Shown: positions 18,075 through 63,396 of the stretch, piece by piece | Numbering within the stretch: position 1 is the stretch's first letter | Layout: every line of letters starts with the position of its first letter | Origin: Bryum argenteum | Taxonomy: Eukaryota > Streptophyta > Bryopsida > Bryales > Bryaceae | Length of the DNA: 64,000 bases | Assembly (NCBI GenBank): GCA_037043015.1 | Contig: CM073325.1 | Location: 4,404,501 to 4,468,500 of the forward strand | Direction: 5' to 3' | Notes under the pieces: model-generated | The model's input: the letters and a program-made list of their open reading frames with translations, nothing else | What the model was told of the DNA's origin: nothing | The model's database searches: none | Position numbers and translations under genes: made by a program

Positions 18075-18107
18075 TGTTGACATTTATCATCTACAGTTCT
18101 CATCCAT
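18075..18107 (+). repeat. Remnant of the copia 5' LTR (33 bp)
   Basis: It is identical to the first 33 bases of the 3' LTR at 22625, starting TGTTGACATTTATC. The next bases are internal gag sequence. Confidence 0.9.
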
Positions 18108-21100
18108 CTCTGAGAAACAACAGGAAGAGATCCTCTACGTACAACAGTCAAACTCCAACTTTCAGTCGCAGCAGTACAACAACCGAGGAGGATACAACCG
18201 AGGAGAATACAACCGAGGAGGATACAACCGAGGAGAATACAACCGAGGAGGTCGTTCAAGAGGTGGAGGTCGCTCATCGGGCAGATCCGGAAGAGGTCGC
18301 GGTCGCAACAACCAGCCCTGTAGAGGCTGCGGTCAATATGGGCATTTCGACCAAGACTGTGAAGTTACGAAACTAGAGCGGCAGATTCGTGAACTGCAAG
18401 TTCAGCTGACTAAACTAAAGACCAATCAGGCAAGTTCATACTCCACAATAGAAACTTTAGATACTACTGATGCTGAAGGAGAAGAAGACACTCAAGCCTC
18501 CCTTAACGCATGCATGGCGGCTTTCTCCAACGACGAGCAACCCTGGTTTCTCGATTCTGGAGCAAGCTCCCACGTTACAGGCAACTCAAACCACTTCTCC
18601 TCCACTTCATCTTCCTCAGTCTCTAGTATCCGTACTGCTGCGGGCCAAGTGCTCCCTGTAAAGCACAAAGGAAATGTTCAATTCTCTGACAATGAAATAA
18701 AGATGGTCAAAGATGTTCTCTACGTTCCAGGCGTCAAAACTAACCTACTATCTGTTGGCAGTTTAGCTGATCTAGGACACACAATTCTCTTCAACTCAAA
18801 AGCTTGCTTAATCTTTGATAAAAACGAACCCCATAGAATTGTACTTCAAGCTAATCGTGACCCAAAAACTAAACTCTACAAATTATCATCAGAACCAATT
18901 CTACCTGACTCTACTTTCTCCACTACTTCACACTCCCCTTCAGTCACACCTGACACAATTGACCTGTGGCATAAGAGGTTAGCACATGTCAACTTACAGA
19001 GTCTATACCATCTAACTAACAAAAACTTAGTTAATGGATTGCCACGAATCCCTTACCAGAAACGTCATTGCACCGAGTGTGTAATGGGAAAATCACACCG
19101 GCATAATTTTCCCAAACTTAGAAGTACATTCTCAACCAAACCTCTCCAGTTAATTCATACTGACCTCTGCGGTCCACTCTCACCTACACGAACTAACTGT
19201 AGATACATTCTAACCTTCATAGACGATTATTCTAGGAAAACATGGGTTTACTTCTTAGTCTCAAAGTCTCAGACACTAACCTACTTCAAGCAGTGTAAGA
19301 GCCTAGTAGAAACTCCTATTCTGAAAATTCAAACATTAAGATCAGATAGGGGTGGTGAATATGTGTCCACCGAATTCTCACAGTTCTGTCTCACTAACGG
19401 CATTCACCAGCAGCTTACTTCGGGTTACTCTCCCGAACAAAACGGTGTAGCAGAGAGAAGAAACAGATACCTTCTAGAAGGAGTTCGCACCGTCGCATCC
19501 GGCACCAGTATACCTCGATTCCTCTGGGATGAGGTCGCCAAAACCGTAACGTACATTCAGAATCGCCTGCCATGCCGAGCATTGAATCTGCAAACACCGG
19601 AGGAAGCTTTTACAGGTCAGAAACCAGACTTATCTCACCTTAGAGTTATCGGTTGTGTTGCCTATTGTCATATCCCTAAAGAAAAGCGTACCAAACTTGA
19701 ACCAAAGGCTCTTCCTACAATTTTGTTAGGGTATGATGAAGCATCCAAAGCATACAGATGTTGGAATCCCCACACACGAAAAATCGTCATTAGTAGAGAT
19801 ATTATATTTGATGAGAATAGCTTCAGTATCACTTCTCCTTCCTTGGAAACCTCTCTACAGAGCTATGATCCTGTTAGCATACTTAGTGACCCTCCAGTCC
19901 AAGTCTCACAACAGACTCCCATCACACAAACTAGAGACCTTCCTGAAATAAATCTCTCTCCACAATCAGTCCTGAACCAACACACGCCTATTCACTTAGA
20001 CCAAGACTTAGAACAGACAGTCAGTACACCTGAAGTCACTACACCTCCAAGCTCGTCGACAGTATCTCTGCCGGCAGTTCCACCATCATTATCGCAGGAA
20101 CCTCCTCGTCGCAGCCTGCGAAATAGAGCTCCAAACATAAAGTTAGACGATTACTACGTTTACTTTGGCATAGATTCCCCTGACTGCAATCAAATTCCAG
20201 CTTCAGCGCTAGATACTGACAACCCAGGTGAAGAACATCTTCCGACTTTTCAACAAGCAATCGTCGATCAACAATGGAGACAAGCCATGGAGCAAGAGAT
20301 GCAAAGCATCTACAAAAATCAGACCTGGATATTACAGGACCTACCCGAAGGGATCAAGCCCATTACCTGCCGATGGGTGTACAGATCAAAGCCAAGCAAA
20401 AACGGTGAACCTGACATCAAAAAGGCCCGTCTCGTAGCGCGCGGTTTCGAACAGAAGGCCGGGTTGGACTATGAGGAAACCTTCGCACCGGTGATTAAGT
20501 GGGCAACAATTCGCCTTGTCGTTGCCCTCGCCTCTGCAAACAGATGGAGCATTGACCACATGGACGTGCGAACCGCTTTTCTCCACGACGTGCTCAAGGA
20601 GGATGTTTACATGAAGCAACCACCTGGGTTTGAAATTCCTGGCAAAGAACACAAAGTTTGTAAGCTCATTCGTTCCCTGTATGGCCTCAAACAATCCCCA
20701 CGAGCGTGGTACAAAAAAATTGACTCATCATTACGAGAAAAGGGTCTGACTCGTAGTGCTTTTGATCCTAACTTATATTTCCTACACAAAGGCTCTAACA
20801 TTCTACTAGTGATGCTCTATGTAGATGATCTTTTTATAACTGGAAGCTGTAAAACTCTTATTAGGTGGATCAAGAATTACTTACACCAAACCTTCGACAT
20901 GACTGACCTCGGGCAAATCTCTAAGTATCTTGGAGTAGTCTTTGAGCATCTCCCACAGGGTATCTTTCTCCACCAGAAAAACTATACTAATTCCATCATT
21001 GAACAATTCTTGCCTCCAGGTCTTCAACCTGTGAAAGTTCCACTACCTGCTGGCCACATCTTACAAACAGAGACTAACACTCCTTTTGTAGATTCAACAC

Positions 21101-21824
21101 ACTACTCTCAGTTAGTAGGTAAACTCATCTTCCTGACTATCTCTAGGCCAGACATATCATACGCTGTTAATAGAATAGCATCCTTCATGGCTAGGCCTCA
21201 ACAACAACACCTTGAGGCGGCCATTCACATTTTGCGCTATCTGATGGGAACCCCAGATTATGGCATCCTATATCAACATAACATATGCTTGAATCTTACT
21301 GGCTATACTGATGCAGACTGGGCACATGCCCAGAAACTAGACGTAGCATTGGCGCATACCTCTTTGTCGCAGCAGGAGGACCAGTGAGCTGGAACAGTAA
21401 AAGGCAGCTCACGATCTCCCGGAGCTCCACCGAATCGGAGTACAAATCACTAAGTGATGGAGTACAAGAAGCCGTCTGGCTCACTCGACTGCTGCAGGAA
21501 CTCCAGGTACAGAATAACACGCCAATTTCAGTAAATCAAACAAACTCTGACATTAGCACTAACCTAGCACCAATAGCAATTCACTGTGACAATCAAAGCA
21601 CAATAAAACTAGCCAAAAATCCTGTGTTCCATGCTAGGAGCAAGCACATCGAGATTCATCATCATTTTGTGCGAGAGAGAGTTTCAACAGGAGAAATTGC
21701 TCTAAAATTTATCAGTACAACGCAGCAGCCTGCAGATTTACTGACCAAACCGTTAGGTAGGATCAAATTCGAAACTCACAGGCAATCTATCAATGTCTAC
21801 AGTCTATCTTTCCTTCGCAAATAA
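18108..21824 (+). pseudogene. copia gag-pol remnant: gag C-terminus, PR, IN, RT, RNase H
   Basis: The open frame runs from LTR sequence into gag; the ATG at 18067 is host DNA and not the true start. In order: a YNRGG/YNRGE repeat made of five 15-bp units (about 18180-18250); CCHC zinc knuckle CRGCGQYGHFDQDC (18319-18360); protease WFLDSGASSHV; integrase HHCC finger and catalytic residues in LIHTDLCGPL, LRSDRGGEY and EQNGVAERR; RT with YVDDLFITGS (about 20818); RNase H with YTDADWA, STESEY and HCDNQS. The frame changes by net -1 near 21321, just after DADW; the rest is encoded at 21322-21824 and ends with the usual QQPADLLTKPLG tail. With its gag truncated and RNase H shifted it is a pseudogene as sequenced. 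Confidence 0.92.
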
Positions 21825-21853
21825 AACTATCACTGCGCTTCCTCAACTGCCTT

Positions 21854-22540
21854 CTAACTTCTATGCTGCAAATACTCACTAGCTTCTTCTAAAGTGCCAA
21901 ATGCCTTGTATTCAGCACCCTTGTACCTGTGAACATTCTCCTTGCATTCTGCCCAACTCCGATATACTCCAATTGCTCTCTCTCTTCTAACAGCGTAGTA
22001 CTTACTAGATGAACCTATCAACACTGAACTCTGTCTCACGCTGACCTTCTCGTAATCCTCGTCTCTCACTTTCGAGCTCCTCTCCTCTCCCTGGTCTTGC
22101 CTTGTAGTGCTCCTACCACCTGCAACCATGACACCGCTAACATCAGATCTGTCCAGACAGAGAGGGGGAAGAACTAATAGATAACCCTAATAGATACTGT
22201 AACCGCGGACTCTTTTCTTTTTGAGACCAGATAACAACAAACGAAGGCCGTCGAAACAACAAACCAGCAACGATCGACACCAACGCCGAAAAAGAGAGAT
22301 GGTCTAGGGTTACCGCTACAGATTACAAGTCGATCTCGCAAATTGACTCAAGCGAACAACAAAAGTACCTGCACTCGCCGGCTCCTCTTCCTCAGCCGAA
22401 AAATTCACGCGAAGCTCACGTACTGCACACATACGACTCACGCACTGGAAAGCTCTCTCAACAACCAACAAAACAAGCGCGATCACAGACCACAACGCGA
22501 GCAGTACGTGATCGGCCCACGACATGCGTTTCACCGCCAT
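21854..22540 (-). CDS. Antisense cargo gene of copia: membrane segment plus viroplasmin-like domain
   Basis: The gene is antisense to copia, between pol and the 3' LTR. Proposed exons are 22540-22369 and 22119-21854, joined by a 249-bp GT-AG phase-1 intron (acceptor TGGTTGCAG), giving about 145 residues. Exon 1 encodes a short basic start and a hydrophobic segment HVLLALWSVIALVLLVVERA, a likely membrane anchor. Exon 2 encodes a Ser/Arg/Glu-rich linker and then KYYAVRRERAIGVYRSWAEC...YKGAEYKAFGTLEEASEYL. This is the pattern of the caulimovirus viroplasmin / RNase H1 N-terminal hybrid-binding fold (K-x-Y-A-V-x-x-G-R-x-x-G-I-Y-x-S-W...GxxxKxFxxxxEAxxYL). RNase H1 domains of this type bind RNA/DNA hybrids. 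The second copia element has a matching gene. Function in the element is unknown. Confidence 0.7.
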
Positions 22541-22624
22541 CTCTAAACGCGCAGCAGACTGCTCCGACAATGACCGACAACGTGGATAAAGACAACCCGA
22601 CACCTGTCTCGGGTTGAGAGGGGG

Positions 22625-22777
22625 TGTTGACATTTATCATCTACAGTTCTCATCCATAGCTTCTAATGAGACTAGGGTTAGGGCTGCTCCCTGTAGCCGA
22701 CTGAGCAGGATACTTGTATAATTATCGTTCTGCAATACGATCAACCTCTCTTCTGCGCATTACACTCTGTGTCAATA
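22625..22777 (+). repeat. 3' LTR of the plus-strand copia element (153 bp)
   Basis: It starts TGTTGACATT directly after a purine tract and ends at the TTAGT target duplication. Size matches the 155-bp LTR of the second copia element. The end reads ...CAATA rather than the usual CA, probably through decay. Confidence 0.82.
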
Positions 22778-48700: not shown

Positions 48701-50955
48701 GGCCGAGGCCGAGGGCGAGGGCGAGTCGAGAGCGATTAGCAGATCTCTGAGCAAAGGTTCACGTGGCAGTAGCCGTCTTAGTATCTTTCGCAAGTCACGA
48801 AGTGCGTCTCGGAGTGTACATGACCAGGTTGGAAGGAGTGGCAGAAGTGGTGAAGCTGACATTGAGACGGGGGATAAGTCGAAGAAGCACAGGGCTGAAT
48901 CCTCAATATTCCGACTCGTCTCTTACAGTAAACCTGAAACTCCGTATTTCATCGTTGGCGGAATTGCCGCCCTTGTGAACGGGACCCTGCTTCCAGTATT
49001 CGGACTTCTGCTGTCGAATCTTATCACTTCTTATTATCAACCGGATAAGGCGAAGCTGAGACGTGATGCAAATTTCTGGTCTCTGATGTTTTTAGTACTA
49101 GCATGTGGCATATTCATCGTTGCCCCGACAAAGTTCTACACATTTGCGGTGATAGGCCATCGGCTTATTCGTCGCCTGCGCAGACTTACCTTTGATAAGG
49201 TGTTGAGGAATGAAGTGGCGTGGTTCGATGAGGACGATAATGGCAGGTGAGGTTTGCTTCGAGGCACGACTTGACTAATGTCTGCAATTACACAATACCC
49301 TCACATCGTTGTTTGATCGAATTGCAGTGGCTCGATCGGTGCACGTCTGTCTACGGACGCAGCAGCTGTGAAGAGTATGGTGGCAGACACCCTGTCACTA
49401 ATCGTCCAGAACATTGGTACTGTTGTTACTGGACTAGCCATAGCTTTCAGCGCCGACTGGCGGCTCTCTCTTCTGGTCCTTGCCCTTGTTCCTCTCATAG
49501 GCTCACAAGGGTATTTCCAGATGAAATTAATGAGCGGTTTCAGCAACGATGCCAAGGTGCCGTTTCCACTTCGTGTGGTGTTAAAACTGCCAGCATTTCC
49601 TTTTCGGAGTCCTTGAGTGGCATTCATGGATTTGACACAATCGTTGCTGTATGTGCAGTCAGCATACGAGGACGCAAGTCGTGTTGCAAACGATGCAATT
49701 TCAAGCATTCGAACTGTGTCGTCGTTCTGCGCTGAAGAGAAAGTGGTGAATTTGTACAACGAGAAGTGCAAGAAACCACTGCAGAGTGGAATACGGCAAG
49801 GATATATCAGTGGAACAGGCTTAGGTTTCTCCAACTTCGTCTTCTTTGCGTGCTACGCACTTTCGTTTTGGTTTGGAGCGAAATTGGTGGACCAGGGAAA
49901 AACGAGCTTCACCGATGTTTTCAAGGTTTTCTTTGCAATCTCTATGAGTGCTACTGGTGTCTCACACAACGCCAGCTTGACACCTGATTTAGCCAAGACC
50001 AAGCTCGCCGTCAATTCTGTGTTCGAGCTGCTAGATCGAAAATCAATCATCGACCCTTTTGACATGTCCGGAAAGACGTTGAAGGCAGTTTATGGGGATA
50101 TTGAGCTTCGCAACGTGAGCTTCACGTATCCGTCCCGGCCTACAATCCCATATTCAGGGATCTGAGCCTCACCGTGCATGCTGGCAAGGTAAGTCCCACC
50201 ATTCTATCAGTACTTGTCTCTGAGGAAGTACTCTGACTTTGTGACCGAATCTTTTGAGCGGTTGTCATATCTACCTAAACTGATTGCTACGTTTTGGATT
50301 TGAGGTGCAGACTGTTGCACTTGTTGGCGAGTCGGGCTCAGGGAAGAGCACGGTGATTTCACTTCTAGAGCGGTTCTATGACGTGGACGGTGGTTCAATT
50401 CTGCTGGATGGTGTGAACATAAGAGAGTTGCAAGTGCGATGGCTCCGTCGTCAATTAGGGTTGGTGAGCCAGGAACCAGTGCTTTTCAACACTTCCATAA
50501 GAGCCAATATTGTGTATGGTACAGACGAAGCAGTGACGGAAGCGGAGATTGAAGCCGCCGCCAAAGCATCCAACTGCCATAAGTTCATCACAGCGGTCCC
50601 TGAAGGATACGACACAACCGTAGGAGAGCGTGGCATTCAGTTGTCAGGAGGTCAAAAGCAGAGAGTTGCAATAGCAAGGGCAATCGTGAAAGACCCGAAT
50701 ATATTGCTGCTGGACGAGGCAACGAGTGCCCTGGACGCTGAATCCGAGCATGCCGTGCAGGAGGCTCTTGACCGCATCATGGTGAACCGAACTACCATCA
50801 TTGTGGCCCATCGTCTGTCCACTATTCGAAACGCCGATGTGATTGCTGTGGTGAGGAATGGGGGCATAGTTGAGCAGGGAAAACATGAGGAGTTGATGGC
50901 GCGTGAGAATGGAGCTTATCATGCGCTTGTGCGTCTCCATATGTCCTCGTCGTGA
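45786..50955 (+). CDS. ABCB (MDR/P-glycoprotein) full transporter, two frame breaks
   Basis: Eleven exons: 45786-46142, 46238-46292, 46433-46608, 46826-47047, 47142-47380, 47542-47805, 47898-48426, 48574-49246, 49328-49556, 49659-50188, 50311-50955; all introns GT-AG. Together they specify about 1306 codons, the normal full-transporter size, ordered TMD1-NBD1-linker-TMD2-NBD2. NBD1 has GESGSGKST split by an intron (47805/47898), LSGGQKQ (48186-48206) and [15 protein letters not shown]2 has GESGSGKST (about 50326) and LSGGQKQ (50641-50661). The linker holds an [13 protein letters not shown] tract from a hexanucleotide repeat and many Ser/Arg. Plant ABCBs of this group sit in the plasma membrane and several move auxin; the substrate here is not evident. 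Two net -1 breaks occur: near 48085-48095 in NBD1 and near 50145-50150 before NBD2. As read, the protein would stop in NBD1, so it is a recent pseudogene or the assembly has errors. Confidence 0.88.
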
Positions 50956-56020: not shown

Positions 56021-57664
56021 CTGTCGGAACAGACAGCGGTGTGGGTGGATGTGGGAAGAGACACTCCCACCCCACTTAAATCTACCTGGCCGCGGCGAGG
56101 CTCCTCGCCCTGCCTTTGCCGCGCCCTCGTGACTCCCATGCCGTGGCTAGACACCTCTCTCCCACGCCCTTATAACTCCGATGCCTCGATTGCACACCTC
56201 TCTCCCCCAAAACTCTCGCTCCCCCACAGCCGCTGTCGAAGCAGACAGCGGTATATGAGGAGCCGCTGTCAGAGCAAACAGCGATGTGGAAGAGCCGCTC
56301 TCAGAGCAGACAGCGATGTGGAGGATGTGGGAGGAGGGTCTCCATCAAAACTCTCGCTTCCCCACAGCCACTGTCGGAGCAGACAGTAGTGTCGCAGGAG
56401 CCGCTGTCGGAGCAGACAGCGGTGTCGGAAGAGCCGCTCTGGGGGACGTGGAAGGAGGGTCTCCCTCAAAACTCTCGCTCCCCCACAGCCGCTGTCGGAG
56501 CAGACAACGGTGTCGAAGACGTGAGAGGAGGGTCTCCCTCAAAACTCTTGCTCCTCCACAGCCGCTGTCGGAGCAGACAGCGGTGTGGGGGGAGCCGCTG
56601 TTGGAGCAGATAGCGGTGTGGAGAACGTGGGAGGAGGGTCTCCATCAAAACTCTCCTTCCCCCACAGCCGCTGTCGGAGGAGACAGTGGTGTGAGAGGAG
56701 CCGCTGTCGAAGCAGACAGCAGTGTGGGAGGAGCGGCTGTCGGAGCAAATAGCGGTGTGGAGAACGTGGGAGGAGGGTCTCCATCAAAACTCTTGTTCCC
56801 TCACCGTCGCTGTCGGAACAAACAATGGTGTGGGAGGAGCCTCTGTCGGAGCAGATAGCGGTGTGGGGGACGTGGGAGGAGGGTCTCCCTCAAAACTCTC
56901 GTTCCCCCACAGCCGCTGTCGGAGCAGACAGTGGTGTGGGAGGAGCCGCTGTCGGAGCAGACGGCGGTGTGGGAGGAGCCGCTGTCGGAGCAGACGGCGG
57001 TGTGGGAGGAGCCGCTGTTGGAGCAGATAGCGGTGTGGAGGACGTGGGAGGAGGGTCTCCCTCAAAACTCTTGCTCCCACACAATCACTATCGGAGCAGA
57101 CAGTGGTGTGGGAGGAGCCGCTGTTGGAGCAGATAGTGGTGTGGAGGACGTGAGAGGAGGGTCTCCCTCAAAACTCTTGCTCCCACACAGTCACTATCGG
57201 AGCAGACAGTGGTGTGGGAGGAGCGGCTGTCGGAGCAGATAGCGGTGTGGAGGACGTGGGAAGAGGGTCTCCCTCAAAACTCTCGCTCCCAGTGCACCCC
57301 TTGACTCATACAGTCCTTGGTTCCGGGTATCTCAGCTATAGCTTCTTACTTGACCTTAAGTTTCTTCCTTTCTACATAGAGTGTGAACAAATTTGAGAGC
57401 AGTCTCAATCTAGTCTAGTTGTTGTGTGGTCTGCCCTGGCCGATGCCGGCTGGGGGTCACCGTTATGTAACTTTTTTTCATGCTATTGATTCTCGTCAAT
57501 ATGTTTCAATAAAAATTAAAATTAAAAAAAATAAAAAAATAAAAAAATAAAAAATGTCGCTCCCCACAGCCACTGTCGGAGCAGATAGTGGTGTGGAAGA
57601 CGCTGTAGGAGGGTCTCCCGAAAGTCTCGCTCTCCCACAGCCGCTGTCGGTGCAGACAGCAGAC
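56021..57664. repeat. Hairpin-forming minisatellite array
   Basis: About 24 copies of a palindromic motif CCGCTGTC-GGAGCA-GACAGCGG occur in two alternating spacings: about 33 bp (with GTGTGGGAGGAG between) and about 105 bp (with GTGGGAGGAGGGTCTCC...CAAAACTC...CCCCCACAG). In longer units flanking CCCACA/TGTGGGAG extends the stem. Many variants keep wobble pairing (CCGCTGTT with GATAGCGG; CCACTGTC with GATAGTGG). The array is interrupted at 57291-57556 by a poly(A) insertion. Degenerate edges begin near 55910. Open frames in several phases result from the repeat and are not taken as genes. Confidence 0.9.
57291..57556 (+). mobile_element. Poly(A)-tailed retro-insertion inside the minisatellite
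   Basis: A 266-bp sequence unlike the array is flanked by the 8-bp duplication TCGCTCCC (57283-57290 and 57557-57564). It ends with CAATAAAAATT and an A-rich tail broken by T. This is the form of a 5'-truncated LINE or processed transcript inserted by target-primed reverse transcription. No coding frame is recognised. Confidence 0.75.
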
Positions 57665-57726
57665 ACACGTCTACGAGAACCTACAGCATTCCGGGAAGGC
57701 GAACCACAATGTTTCGGTCTGGTGAC

Positions 57727-57881
57727 TGTTGGTATTGAAGAGTGCTCAGAAAACGAGAGAGAATTCATTCAGGAGAGTACAGTTTAAGTACATGTGAAGG
57801 CACGGTAACCGGACAGGTGCGGCGGCTACTAGGTTTACATCTAAACCCTAAACTCTATGGATGAAATCTGTTTATTCTTCA
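57727..57881 (-). repeat. 3' LTR of the minus-strand copia element (155 bp)
   Basis: It starts TGTTGGTATTG on the plus strand and ends TTTATTCTTCA. It is base-for-base identical with 63076-63230. Confidence 0.96.
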
Positions 57882-57993
57882 CCCCCTCTCAAACTGGCGC
57901 AGGGTGTCAGTTTGGTACTTTGCAGTCTTCTAATTGTAGCTCCGTCGATCCGTGACTTTGCCGACTTGTCAATTGTTTTACTTTTTATCCAAG

Positions 57994-58599
57994 ATGACCG
58001 ATCATGGCTGGGATCGATTTGTTCAAGCTTGTCTGATGCTGGTGTCGGTGGTAGTAGCAGTGGTGCGCGATTTTTGTGAAATGATAGTCAGGAGCGTAGA
58101 GGCTGTGATTGCGGGTCGCCGGGAGCGAGCGCTTGATTTGCCGGAAGAGCGATGCGAGATAAGAGATGATACGCTTGAGCAGTATTATCGACGACTTCCT
58201 TGTGTTGGTGAGTGACTTGTCTTCGGAATTGTGTTGATTGCTGTGGCTGCATTTGTTGTAGGGTTTTCGTTGATGACATGCAGGGTTGCGACCTCCTCTT
58301 ATTGATTGTGTGCTTCGCTGCGAGTGTGTCCTGCAGATTGTTACGAGCAACAATGCTGGCACTGTGCAAATGGAGATGTCTGCAATAGTGGTTATGTGAA
58401 GAATGAAAGAAAGGAGGCTAACAAGGTCAGCAGAGGACAGAGGGTTAGAATGCCGAAATTTTATTCGATAAGACAGGGCAGAAAAGTAGGGATATTTAGA
58501 AGCTGGGAGGATTGCAGAGATCAAGTGTTAGGTTTTCGTGGTAGTGAGTTCAAGTCATTTAGATCTTTAGAGGAAGCAGAAGAGTATCTAAGGAGTTAG
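57994..58599 (+). CDS. Antisense cargo gene of copia: hydrophobic segment plus viroplasmin-like domain
   Basis: The gene is antisense to the host element, between pol and the 3' LTR. Proposed exons are 57994-58207 and 58337-58599, joined by a 129-bp GT-AG phase-1 intron (donor GTGAGT, acceptor GTCCTGCAG), giving about 158 residues. Exon 1 starts MTDHGWDRFVQACLMLVSVV, with a hydrophobic stretch to about residue 30, and ends in a charged region. Exon 2 opens DCYEQQCWHCANGDVC, a small Cys/His cluster, then KFYSIRQGRKVGIFRSWEDC...FRGSEFKSFRSLEEAEEYL, the viroplasmin / RNase H1 hybrid-binding pattern with the key K-F-Y, G-R, G-I-F, S-W and E-F-K-S-F positions. The frame is intact in this very young element. 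It matches 21854-22540 in layout though the sequence is diverged. Confidence 0.75.
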
Positions 58600-61500
58600 T
58601 TTCGTTTGCTGAAGAAAAGATAGGCTAATCAGATTTAGGTTAGATCTATGAAGCTCAAACTTAGTACGCCCGAGTGGCTTTGTTAGTAGATCAGCGGGTT
58701 GCTTCGCTGTATTTATGAATTGAAGGCTGATTTCCCCCTCTAAGACACGTTCGCGTATAAAGTGGTAATGAATGTCAATATGCTTTGTTCTTGCATGGAA
58801 GACGGGATTCTAGCTAGTTTTAATGCACTCTGGTTATCACAATGCATTTCTATGGGAGCTGAGAGAGAGGTGTTAATGGTGTCGTTAGCTTGTGACACAG
58901 GTACAGGTATGGAAGGAAGAACCTGGAGTTCTTTGAGGAGACGAGTGAGCCATATTGCTTCTTTGACACCGTCGCTGAGGGCGCGGTATTCGGATTCGGT
59001 GGAGGACCGAGAAACGGTGATCTGCCGTTTGCTCTGCCAACTTATGGGAGCGCCTACGGAGGTGAATAGATAGGCTCCGATACTGCGTCTGGTCTCCGGA
59101 CAGGTACCCCAGTCGGCATCTGTATAACCCGATATTGTGAATGTGGAGTCATGCTGATAGAAGAGTCCGGTGTTTGGATTTCCCTTGAGATATCGTAGAA
59201 TTTGTATAGCTGCATCGAGGTGAAGTTGTTGCGGTGCAGACATGAAGGATGCAATTCGGTTCACCGCGTAGGAAATATCAGGCCTGGTTATAGTAAGAAA
59301 AATGAGTTTCCCAACAAGCTGTTGATAGTGATTTGTGTTCACTGGTGGCGTACCTGTTTCGGATGTGAGACAATGGCCGGCTGGAAGAGGCACCTTGGAG
59401 GCGTGCTGATCTGAGGGAAGGAACTGCGCGAGGATGGAATTCGTGTAGTCACGCTGGTGTAGCAGAATACCACCAGGTAAGTATTCAAATAGTATCCCTA
59501 GATACTTTTGTAATTGGCCAAGATCTGTCATGTCAAAGGTCTGTTGTAGAAACTGTTTGATCCAAGTGATCAGTTTGTGAGAACTGCCTGTTATAAAAAG
59601 ATCGTCAACGTATAGCAGGACAATGAGAATGTTATTGTCAGTATGCAAGTAGTACAAATTAGGGTCGAAGGAGCTCCTCTTGAGGCCGATGTCTGTAAGA
59701 GCGGAGTCTATTCGTTCGTACCAGGCCCGTGGGGATTGTTTGAGTCCGTAGAGGGACCTCAATAATCTGCAGACTTTGTTCTCTTGACCAGGCACTTCAA
59801 AACCGGGAGGTTGGGTCATGAAAACTTTTTCTTTGAGAATCCCATGTAAGAAGGCAGTTCTAACATCCATGTGGTGTAGTTTCCATCGATTTGAAGCTGC
59901 AAGAGCCACCATGGTGCGAATTGTGACCCATTTAATGACTGGCGCGAATGTCTCATCATAATCTATGCCTGCTCTTTGTTCGAAACCCCGGGCCACCAGA
60001 CGAGCTTTCTTCGTGGGTGATGCGCCTGGGAGTCCTGGCTTCTCCCGAAAAACCCATCGGCATGTAATTGGTGTAACACCAGGAGGTAGGTCATCTAAGA
60101 TCCAAGTGTTGTTGTGTTGGATGCTTTCCATTTCTTGCTGCATCGCGCTTCTCCATTGACTGTCTTGCATTGCCTGTTTGAGTGTAGGTTCTTGCAGATC
60201 AGCAGTGTCGGGAGTGGTGGTTTGGAATATTGACATGGGGGAACAGTCTGGGGATTCGGAGGTCATATAGACGTAGTAGTCACCAAGTTTGATGCTGGGT
60301 GCTCGAGTTCGGGAGCTACGACGAGATGGGACCGGGCGATTGTCTACTGGAATGTTCGGTCTTAACCACTGCTCCTGATGAGCTGTAGGTTCGGGGGAAT
60401 CGAGAGCTCGTGGGGAGGAGGGAGGGGATACTGGCGGAGAGTTTTCGATGGGTGGAGAGGTAGGAGTTGCTGGGATTTCGGTACTGACTGTGGTTTCTTT
60501 CTGTGGGAAAAGTTTGGGAGTTATGTGCAGGTTCTCTAAGAGTTCAGACTGGCGTGTAGGCGAGGGATGAGAAAGGCTAAAGCTGGATTCGTCGAACACT
60601 ACATCTCGACTTATGACAACTTTACAGGTGACGGGGTTATAGCATCTGTATGCTTTAGACTGCTCATCATACCCTAAGAATAATGTGGGAATTGCCTTGT
60701 TATCGAGTTTAGTTCTCTTTTCCTGTGGAATGTGGCAATATGCGAGGCATCCTATGACTCGGAGATGGGACAAGTTTGGTTTAATACCTGAAAAAACTTC
60801 CTCTGGTGTTTGAAGTCGCAGGGCGCGGCAGGGGAGTCTGTTTTGGACATAGTTGACGGCACGAGCAATTTCGTCCCACAAGGAACGTGGTATGCTTGTT
60901 CCTGTTACGACGCTACGTATGCCCTCAAGGAGATATCGATTCCTTCTCTCGGCGATCCCATTTTGCTCTGGAGAATACCCAGCGGTCAGTTGGCGGTGAA
61001 TGCCATGTGATTCGCAGAAGTCCTTGAACTCGCTGGAAAGGTATTCTCCGCCTCAGTCAGTCCGGAGAGTCTGGATTTTTTGAGTAGGTGTTTCAATCAA
61101 GTTTTTAAACTTGACAAAGTATGAAAAAACCTGGTCTTTGTGCGTGAGAAAGTAGAGCCAAGATTTACGAGAGTAATCATCAATGAAGGTAAGGATGTAC
61201 CGACAGTTTGTTTGTGTAGCGATTGGGAGAGGCCCACATATATCGCTGTGAATCAACTGCAGTGGTTTGGTGGTGAAGGTGGAGCGGAGTCTAGGAAATG
61301 ACTGTCGATGAGATTTTCCGAGTACGCAGCTGTTGCAAAGCTTCTTCACGTAGGGAATCTTGGGAACTCCGTTGACTAGATTTCGGTTAGTTAAATGGTA
61401 GAGTGACTGTCTGTTTACGTGGGCCAATCGTCTGTGCCACAGATCGATAGTCTCGACCGAGACTGGTGGCTCCTGTGCGGTCGAGGTGGTTCTGGCGAGG

Positions 61501-63020
61501 TCCGTCATGCGCTTCGTTACAGGAACGTTGTTTGATGAGGTCATGAGAGACAAGGTCGGTGTGGGTCTCTGCTTGGGCGTCGATGCTGCTGGTACTGGCG
61601 CTGGAGACAGAGCGACGGAGTTGCTTGTTGAGAGTCTGTAGAGTCTGGAGCGAGGTTCGCGATTGGCCTGGAGAAGCAGGTTTTGGCAAGATTTGTCTAA
61701 CACAAGGCAGTTTTTGGCTGTGAAAACTACAACGTAGCCTAGATCGGCAAGAGTACCCACGGAGAGTAGGTTAGTATTAACGCCGGGAACGTAAAGGACA
61801 TCGTTAATGGGCTTTATTGCTGGGTTAGAAAAAACAACGGTGCCTTTGTTCTGGACAGGGAGTACTTGTCCAGCGGCAGTACGGATACTAGTTACTGATG
61901 ATTCAGTGATATTGGACAGGGCGCTTACGTTGCCGGTTACGTGAGAGCTTGCTCCTGAATCCATGAACCAAGGATCTTCGTCTGTGGTAAAGGCTGCCAT
62001 GCAGGCGTTGAGCGCGGCCTGATTGTTATCACAATGGTCTGGATCTTCGTACTGGTCAGGTGGATCTTCGGTGAGAGCGGCATAGGAGGTTCCAGTCTTG
62101 AGTTTTGAGAGTTGAGCTTGAAGCTCCCGAATCTGATTCTCCATCTTTGTCACGTCGCAGTGATATTCGTTGTGACCATGTTGTCCGCATGATTTGCAGG
62201 GACGATGCTGGTGCGAGGATCGGCCGCGACCTCCACGGTTCCATCTGTTGGAACGTCCGCCCCCTCTGTAGTTTTGCTGTTGTGGGGGTTGCTGGAATCG
62301 ATTGGTAGTCTTCGTGAAGAGAATTTCATCAGTCACGTGATCCCTGTCCAGCAATTTCGAACTCTCCTCGTGGAGCATTAGGCCCTGAAGTTCAGGGAAG
62401 GTAGGACTCCTTTCCCTTCCCTTTTGAATTGCTTTGAAGGTGGACCAAGATCTAGGGAGACTGGCTAGCATCTGATCGACTAGATCCTCATCGGAAATGA
62501 CTACACCTAGACTAGAAAGCTGAGTTATGAGAGAATTTGTCTCTTGGAAATGTGAATCTACAGTCTTCCCTTCTATCATTTTTAGTGAGTAAAACTTCTC
62601 CTTAAGTGCTAATCTCCTAGAGGGACTCTGAACATCGTACATGCGTTTCAAAGTGTTCCACATTTCCAATGGATCGGTAAGATGCATGATGTGAAAGAGA
62701 ACGTGATCCTTTACCGTAGAGATCAAGATTCGGCATGCGCGGATCCTTTGTTCTTCATCGTTGCTTTGTAATTGTGTTGCAGTTGCAGCTGTTGATGTGC
62801 CTGCGGCACCTGTTATGGCAGCTCCTGTTGCGGCAGCGGTGTCTGCTGATGTGACTGTGGAGGAGTTGTTGGTGGAGCTTCCGGCGTCTGGAGTTGATGG
62901 AAAGAATCTCCACAGGTTCTCCTGCATGAATAACATTTTGACACGATAACTCCAGAGCATGTAATTCTTCTGACCATCTAACTTCGTAGATTCGGTCATC
63001 TCTCTAAGGAATGAGTCCAT
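58600..63020 (-). pseudogene. copia gag-pol polyprotein with one nonsense and one frameshift change
   Basis: It starts at ATG 63020. Gag is of the UBN2/copia type (LDGQKNYMLWSYRVKMLF near residue 14) with a CCHC knuckle at C275, C278, H283, C288. Then protease WFMDSGASSHV, integrase HHCC finger (GKSHRQSF after it), LIHSDICGPL, RT with YVDDLFITGS, and RNase H with YTDADWG, STESEY, HCDNQS. The frame has an in-frame TGA at 61055-61053 in the integrase motif around the second catalytic Asp, where this lineage has Arg (CGA to TGA would be a CpG transition). A missing base in an A run near 58810 shifts the end of RNase H, so the usual tail is read in another frame to about 58620. Otherwise the frame is intact, so decay is minimal. 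Confidence 0.93.
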
Positions 63021-63063
63021 CTTTGAAAGTGCTAATGGGATCTACTTCTGTGTACCACAGAGA

Positions 63064-63075
63064 GCTCTGATACCA
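63064..63075 (-). other. Primer-binding site (initiator tRNA-Met)
   Basis: TGGTATCAGAGC on the minus strand directly after the LTR's final ACA is the standard plant copia site for priming minus-strand DNA synthesis. Confidence 0.93.
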
Positions 63076-63230
63076 TGTTGGTATTGAAGAGTGCTCAGAA
63101 AACGAGAGAGAATTCATTCAGGAGAGTACAGTTTAAGTACATGTGAAGGCACGGTAACCGGACAGGTGCGGCGGCTACTAGGTTTACATCTAAACCCTAA
63201 ACTCTATGGATGAAATCTGTTTATTCTTCA
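63076..63230 (-). repeat. 5' LTR of the minus-strand copia element (155 bp)
   Basis: Identical to the LTR at 57727-57881, with the primer-binding site immediately inside it (63064-63075). Confidence 0.96.
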
Positions 63231-63396
63231 GTGACCCGATGAGGATCTACGAACTCTCTACGAAGTCGGCAAGCGTGGTGAATTGCAGTTTCATCATTCT
63301 CACGTTTGCAAAGTAGGGTTTGCAAGAAGTTTCGCAATGCGTGGAGGACTGGTGGTTTCTTCGGTAGTGGGACCTCGTAAGAATTCCATCTCATCG
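63231..63396 (-). pseudogene. Open frame interrupted by the young copia insertion
   Basis: After an acceptor-like TTATTCTGCAG the frame begins at about 63394 (ATG): MRWNSYEVPLPKKPPVLHAL...RNFLQTLLCKRENDETAIHH...RREFVDPHRV. It reaches the GTGAC target site. On the far side of the copia element the same frame continues (57721 downward: TRPKHCGSPSRNAVGSRRRV) into the minisatellite. So before insertion there was one open frame of at least 100 codons. I do not recognise the protein; whether it was a functional exon is unknown. Confidence 0.4.

Follow-up and report, generated by a model that had tools for sequence, protein, structure and literature searches.

Several plant long terminal repeat (LTR) retrotransposons carry, between pol and the 3' LTR and on the strand opposite to gag-pol, an additional antisense open reading frame (aORF) that is present in most copies of the family; this class, named aORF-3R, includes Grande gene23, RIRE2, Retand ORF4, which encodes TRP28, and PvRetro13. 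Grande and RIRE2 are Ty3/gypsy elements. Retand is also Ty3/gypsy and its TRP28 is described as probably able to bind DNA (PMC11963269), while for Grande the antisense gene is reported to be driven by a promoter of its own and to code for a nuclear protein (PMC7264820). Such frames have long been known in plants, but the function of their products is not, and apart from an SMC and a transposase-28 domain the same source reports no clear similarity to database proteins (PMC7264820). A gene with an equivalent position and orientation is found in a Ty1/copia element of Bryum argenteum (Bryopsida), within a 64,000-nt stretch of contig CM073325.1 (assembly GCA_037043015.1, positions 4,404,501 to 4,468,500 of the forward strand), hereafter the window. 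Differently from the aORF-3R elements, the host element is here of the Ty1/copia type, the product contains an RNase H1-type hybrid-binding domain, and the gene has a predicted intron.

Other systems share single features with this gene. HBZ of human T-cell leukemia virus type 1 (HTLV-1) is a spliced gene and codes for a bZIP factor, with no hybrid-binding domain. It resembles the window gene in being an antisense accessory gene, and HBZ is expressed from the 3' LTR (PMC3736048). In caulimoviruses, which are reverse-transcribing elements of plants, the transactivator TAV (P6) contains an RNase H1-like binding motif; however, TAV is described as a multifunctional protein involved in TOR binding, translation and silencing (PMC5902531), whereas the window product is 158 aa long, antisense and predicted to be spliced, and no other TAV feature was found in it. 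In Pleurotus, the helitron gene capE is a PF01693 gene carried by a transposon, but the carrier is a fungal DNA transposon, and a single helitron subfamily has captured several genes, capE among them (PMC4289320). Antisense aORFs in plant LTR elements and PF01693 in a helitron are known, while no LTR element with an antisense PF01693 gene was listed in searches of an open-access library, subscription journals and element databases being outside that scope, in agreement with the statement of the initial annotation of this DNA that no copia lineage with such a cargo had been described.

The gene occupies the interval from the 3' LTR to the pol end, on the opposite strand to copia, and is composed of two predicted exons (Table 1); its end and that of pol overlap tail to tail by 12 nt. 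A caulimovirus viroplasmin/RNase H1 pattern had been proposed for the C-terminus from the letters alone. Indeed, PF01693 matches residues 112-155 with an E value of 4.3e-18 and 65.7 bits (cut-off 21), over 44 of 44 profile positions, and the only PDB sequences matched are RNase H1 entries, corresponding to three distinct sequences (1qhk, 2e-10; 3bsu, 5.3e-9; 6vrd, 3.5e-8). A structure model was obtained for a 79-residue part of the contiguous exon-2 frame, in an alignment that included 11 database relatives. Its strands and helices follow each other as in the RNase H1 domain, with the beta-beta-alpha-beta-alpha fold of the solved domains; the mean predicted local distance difference test (pLDDT) is 73, and 82-87 over the domain. 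Its best solved match is 3bsu, the human domain with RNA/DNA (E 9.6e-5, root mean square deviation 0.7 A, 47 columns, 42% identity). Of the double label, the RNase H1 hybrid-binding part therefore stands, as both PDB sequence and fold matches indicate, and the viroplasmin part does not: membership of the TAV proteins was ruled out, since the short motif alone is shared by a 158-aa antisense product of a copia element with no other domain. A chance open reading frame was ruled out by the profile E value together with conservation.

The human domain contacts the hybrid through Y29, W43, F58, K59 and K60, and four of these five are kept in the six uninterrupted copies that were aligned. In that alignment, the only one in which the residues were read, Y114, W128, F143 and K144 are invariant, and they correspond to human Y29, W43, F58 and K59 in an alignment with the PDB sequence where residues were counted by hand. 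The W43A or KK59/60AA substitutions weaken binding by the human domain (PMC10639055). The product shares with the eukaryotic RNase H1 domain (human 3bsu, yeast 1qhk) the fold and, in these six copies, the conserved Y, W, F and first K; conversely, the second K is replaced, the N-terminus is different, the gene is borne by a retroelement and the catalytic domain is missing, since a Pfam search of the 158-aa product gave PF01693 only, with no PF00075, and the frame ends after the domain.

The splice sites were predicted from sequence. In the window, one pair was picked from 14 frame-compatible pairs for its canonical donor, TTG/GTGAGT, and its pyrimidine-rich acceptor, TGTCCTGCAG; the equivalent exon-intron arrangement was then found in other copies. 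Sites could be assigned in 13 of 14 loci, in line with the two-exon plan of the initial annotation, the remaining locus (L010) being without a recognisable exon 1. In the assigned loci exon 1 measures 211-220 nt and the intron 101-201 nt, with an acceptor ending in CAG or TAG and phase 1, which is partly a consequence of picking frame-keeping pairs; the donor of L012 is a guess. Exon-1 length and site positions recur even in a copy with 34% protein identity to the window. When 13 further loci, mostly from other subfamilies, were run through an automatic splice-pair search, three (L030, L031, L051) had the same intron plan with good sites and two (L036, L042) were compatible with it, the acceptor of L042 being ambiguous. 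The predicted intron plan thus recurs in divergent subfamilies.

All copies come from a single genome of 259 Mb in 25 contigs. A DNA search gave 17 matches, from which the 13 places of the element other than the window were taken. The exon-2 product is encoded in every one of these 13, and exon 1 is also detectable by tblastn in eight. The cargo frame is uninterrupted to the usual stop in seven of the 14 loci and past it in one, and is not annotated in another. An LTR pair was found in 11 of the 14 loci, window included, and is identical in five. A search with the window reverse transcriptase (RT) gave at least 151 matches (150 of 1337 candidates were scored), the best 30 of which were cut out as loci. 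An antisense PF01693-type domain is present in 28 of these best 30, one of them (L038) being counted on a 13-residue remnant (E 1.6e-4), and it lies opposite to the RT in 28 of 28, as the antisense orientation first described for the window had suggested. Both the PF01693 or fold match and the presence of the frame in other family copies, on which the initial annotation had made its proposal depend, were looked for and found; a one-off capture in the window copy is ruled out by these same counts.

The 28 carriers all have an RT at least 70% identical to that of the window, and the two non-carriers are at 60% and 58%. The 3' flanks of six elements, namely these two and four at 54-58% (eight stretches, with the pol end of L054 outside the stretch seen), contain no domain: the best E value is 0.98 for the domain profile and 0.88 for that of the cargo. 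The census covers 34 of at least 151 places, and those left out include C7:9995423 and C2:15472486, at 70-74% identity. A decayed copy outside the best 30 (L011) carries the domain with an RT that is 60% identical over the compared part and has three stops; thus the boundary holds for intact RTs and not as a strict number. A second member of the clade (L042) lies in the window itself, at 18075-22657 on the plus strand; no full LTR pair was found for it, only a 33-bp repeat at 18075-18107 and 22625-22657.

A branch with support 100/100 separates the 28 carriers from the rest of the RT tree, which is rooted at its midpoint only; the two non-carriers in it are nearly identical copies, and an equally good separation was reached in 18 of 500 shuffles of the labels. 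The domain tree (22 rows) is weakly resolved, with four of 17 inner branches strong, and its strong groups (L024/25/26/29, L027/28/30/32, L036/51 and L041/43) are RT groups or are nested in them, as would be expected if cargo and polymerase had travelled together. The ratio of nonsynonymous to synonymous substitution rates (dN/dS) was compared in the three closest pairs with measurable rates. Between the window and L009 it is 0.07 for the domain (bootstrap 0-0.23, 47 codons) and 0.07 for the RT (0.04-0.13, 240 codons); the corresponding values are 0.10 and 0.06 for L013-L015, and 0.13 and 0.11 for L015-L017. In the pairs that can be measured best, purifying selection on the domain is about as strict as that on the polymerase, and the remainder of the protein is far less conserved.

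The features by which the window gene compares with the antisense aORFs, namely its antisense presence in 28 of the best 30 RT loci and a domain dN/dS near that of the RT in three pairs, together with the recurring intron plan, make it look like a clade-defining gene and not a passenger. The explanation that we favor, at somewhat better than even chances, is that it is an accessory gene defining this copia lineage, whose product binds hybrids and acts on the replication of the element itself. The protein would bind RNA/DNA hybrids, and perhaps double-stranded RNA (dsRNA); most likely it would hold reverse-transcription intermediates or tune the copia RNase H, while its N-terminal stretch may supply oligomers, or an anchor to a membrane or to the particle. 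The persistence of the intron would follow from the orientation of the gene, because, by the established logic of retrotransposition, the genomic RNA that is reverse transcribed carries an antisense intron unrecognised and it would be copied unharmed; a sense intron, by contrast, would be lost at each passage through RNA. The same principle is used in reporter constructs, where the intron runs against the reporter (PMC12786077).

A number of observations weigh against this explanation. The place of human K60 is taken by S or A, and K60 is listed among the contacts that the human domain needs, although of the four residues required there the fly enzyme retains two (PMC7657459); furthermore, W is lost in L039 and L044, and Y stands at the F place in some copies. 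The cargo frame is interrupted in five of the 14 loci. Among the 13 further loci, the top-scoring splice pair of L036 is in another phase, L028, L041, L043 and L044 have only poor or ambiguous pairs, and no frame-compatible pair was found in L027, L032, L033 and L046, so that good support for the predicted intron is confined to part of the clade. Confidence intervals on the 47 domain codons are wide, and the domain dN/dS rises to 0.32 for window-L012, 0.23 for window-L021, 0.33 for L013-L017 and, in the decayed pair L011-L012, 0.55; several ratios are undefined, synonymous sites being saturated between distant subfamilies or too few. The part before the domain is weakly constrained (dN/dS 0.30-0.73), and the domain tree, weak as it is, sets L023 apart from its RT partner L022 (82/77). 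Finally, no result favors the element over the host as the beneficiary.

Part of these data would also fit a passenger, such as an RNase H1 fragment picked up by the element, or a regulatory role of the antisense RNA in which the protein is irrelevant: the interrupted frames and the domain ratios of 0.3-0.55 in some pairs point that way. We consider this the least probable reading, and a very improbable one, given ratios near 0.1 in the best-measured pairs, a reading phase kept across the intron and the retention of at least part of the domain by 28 of 28 clade loci. A role as silencing suppressor ranks next after that of replication cofactor, even if it appears unlikely: the antisense transcript would pair with genomic RNA and the protein would shield the dsRNA or the hybrid from Dicer-like enzymes or from RNA-directed methylation. 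Pairing of the antisense transcripts of LTR elements with genomic RNA may give rise to dsRNA (PMC7264820), and the equivalent motif of TAV from cauliflower mosaic virus binds both hybrids and dsRNA in vitro; the parallel is weakened by the report, in the same source, that the domain is dispensable there for suppression (PMC5902531), and by the preference of the human domain for hybrids over dsRNA, at least 25-fold (PMC8677849).

A domain devoid of nuclease could instead compete with the RNase H1 of the host, covering hybrids so that neither the host enzyme nor the RNase H of the element cleaves them too early. The presence of the binding domain alone, with no PF00075 nuclease, is what such a competitor would need, but most reverse transcription takes place within particles, in which little host RNase H1 is to be expected; no host RNase H1 was found for comparison, in an uninformative search with the catalytic part of a bacterial enzyme. 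This role is regarded as doubtful, more so than silencing suppression. Chromodomains act as tethers for chromoviruses at heterochromatin, and the protein might in a similar way bring the preintegration complex to R-loops in chromatin. A sensor made of three human domains labels R-loops in cells (PMC10639055) and some aORF proteins are nuclear, as Grande GENE23 (PMC7264820). On the other hand, a single human domain gave no focal labelling (PMC10639055), the domain is not fused to integrase and the hydrophobic N-terminal stretch points rather to a membrane or to an oligomer, which leaves tethering as improbable.

The N-terminal part of the protein contains a 19-residue stretch with a mean hydropathy of 1.95-2.58, followed by a Cys-rich one, in the eight copies scored out of 13; the former has, in its predicted sequence, the character of a membrane or buried helix. 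No Pfam match was found for this part in the 158-aa product. A genome search with exon 1 gave 11 places, ten of them in loci of this element family and the remaining one at C7:7079627; leaving this place out, neither that search nor a profile search of the protein database found a relative of the N-terminal part outside the family. With the window spliced product alone no database match was obtained at E 0.001, and a six-copy profile retrieved 18 proteins at E 0.01, all of which have PF01693 and align to 28-30% of the query. In the eight proteins inspected the match is the PF01693 domain and the rest is unlike the antisense product; thus in neither search was the full architecture found outside this genome. 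One 232-aa metagenomic protein (P0005) has a hybrid-binding domain 66% identical to that of the window and an unrelated N-terminus.

The host element spans 57727-63230 on the minus strand and is structurally complete, with LTRs, primer binding site, polypurine tract and a 5-bp target-site duplication; the copia type is given by the PF07727 RVT_2 and PF14223 gag domains, and integrase precedes the RT, as in Ty1/copia. The gag and pol frames contain PF14223, PF22936, PF13976, PF25597 and PF07727, with PF00665 below its cut-off. Since both LTRs are identical, the insertion is recent. Its gag-pol is broken by an in-frame TGA near 61053 and by a frame change near 58810 (by eye), although the cargo frame is uninterrupted. 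A stretch similar to the polypurine tract occurs at an equivalent position in the other copies compared. The motif AAACCCTA, presumably a telo-box, is found in the LTRs in the orientation of the antisense gene in eight of 11 copies compared (in the window, at 57727-57881 and 63076-63230), and could be part of an antisense promoter. In locus L013 (L013:1718-6088), one of the 14, gag-pol is a single uninterrupted frame of 1457 aa, and for this reason the lineage may have been active recently. Near the insertion site, at 56180-57300, GC-rich repeats built around CCGCTGTCGGAGCAGACAGCGGTGTGG were seen by eye to form a long, diverged array, and open frames of an ABC transporter, also seen by eye, lie at 49617-50955 on the plus strand, about 7 kb from the element.

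Table 1. Positions in the window of the antisense gene, of its copia host element and of the second clade member (L042).
Feature	Positions	Strand	Remarks
Exon 1 of antisense gene (predicted), 214 nt	57994..58207	+	ATG to TTG/GTGAGT; hydrophobic N-terminal stretch
Phase-1 intron, 129 nt	58208..58336	+	GTGAGT...TGTCCTGCAG; predicted, supported by recurrence in other copies
Exon 2 of antisense gene (predicted)	58337..58599	+	Cys-rich linker and hybrid-binding domain; stop TAG
RNase H1 hybrid-binding domain (PF01693)	58456..58587	+	
Target-site duplication GTGAC, left copy	57722..57726		read from sequence
3' LTR of copia element, 155 nt	57727..57881	-	100% identical to 5' LTR
Polypurine tract	57882..57891	-	complement CCCCCTCTCA on + strand
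pol 3' end, frame differing from main pol frame	58588..58809	-	by eye; no Pfam match of its own
Main pol frame: SH3-like domain and RVT_2 reverse transcriptase	58743..61052	-	
gag, GAG-pre-integrase, integrase start	61056..63041	-	one in-frame TGA separates it from the pol frame
Primer binding site	63064..63075	-	TGGTATCAGAGC on - strand
5' LTR of copia element, 155 nt	63076..63230	-	
Target-site duplication GTGAC, right copy	63231..63235		read from sequence
L042 reverse transcriptase	20323..21006	+	71% identical
L042 hybrid-binding domain of antisense gene	21869..22003	-	frame 21857-22186

In its stronger form, the replication-cofactor explanation states that a copia lineage evolved a trans-acting factor that binds RNA/DNA hybrids, independent of the polymerase and encoded by an antisense, intron-bearing gene, which is needed for reverse transcription or tunes it. 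This is put forward tentatively, at somewhat less than even chances; to our knowledge, such a replication cofactor is known in no LTR retrotransposon. The antisense product has here a domain whose structure is solved and whose ligand is known; this ligand, the RNA/DNA hybrid, is the intermediate of the life cycle of the element itself. Thus the question of function can be addressed directly, and the carriers and the closest non-carriers examined, being found in one genome, offer natural controls. If the proposal is true, the antisense strand would be a place where an intron-bearing gene survives the RNA stage, and the kept intron suggests why spliced genes of retroelements can find refuge on this strand.
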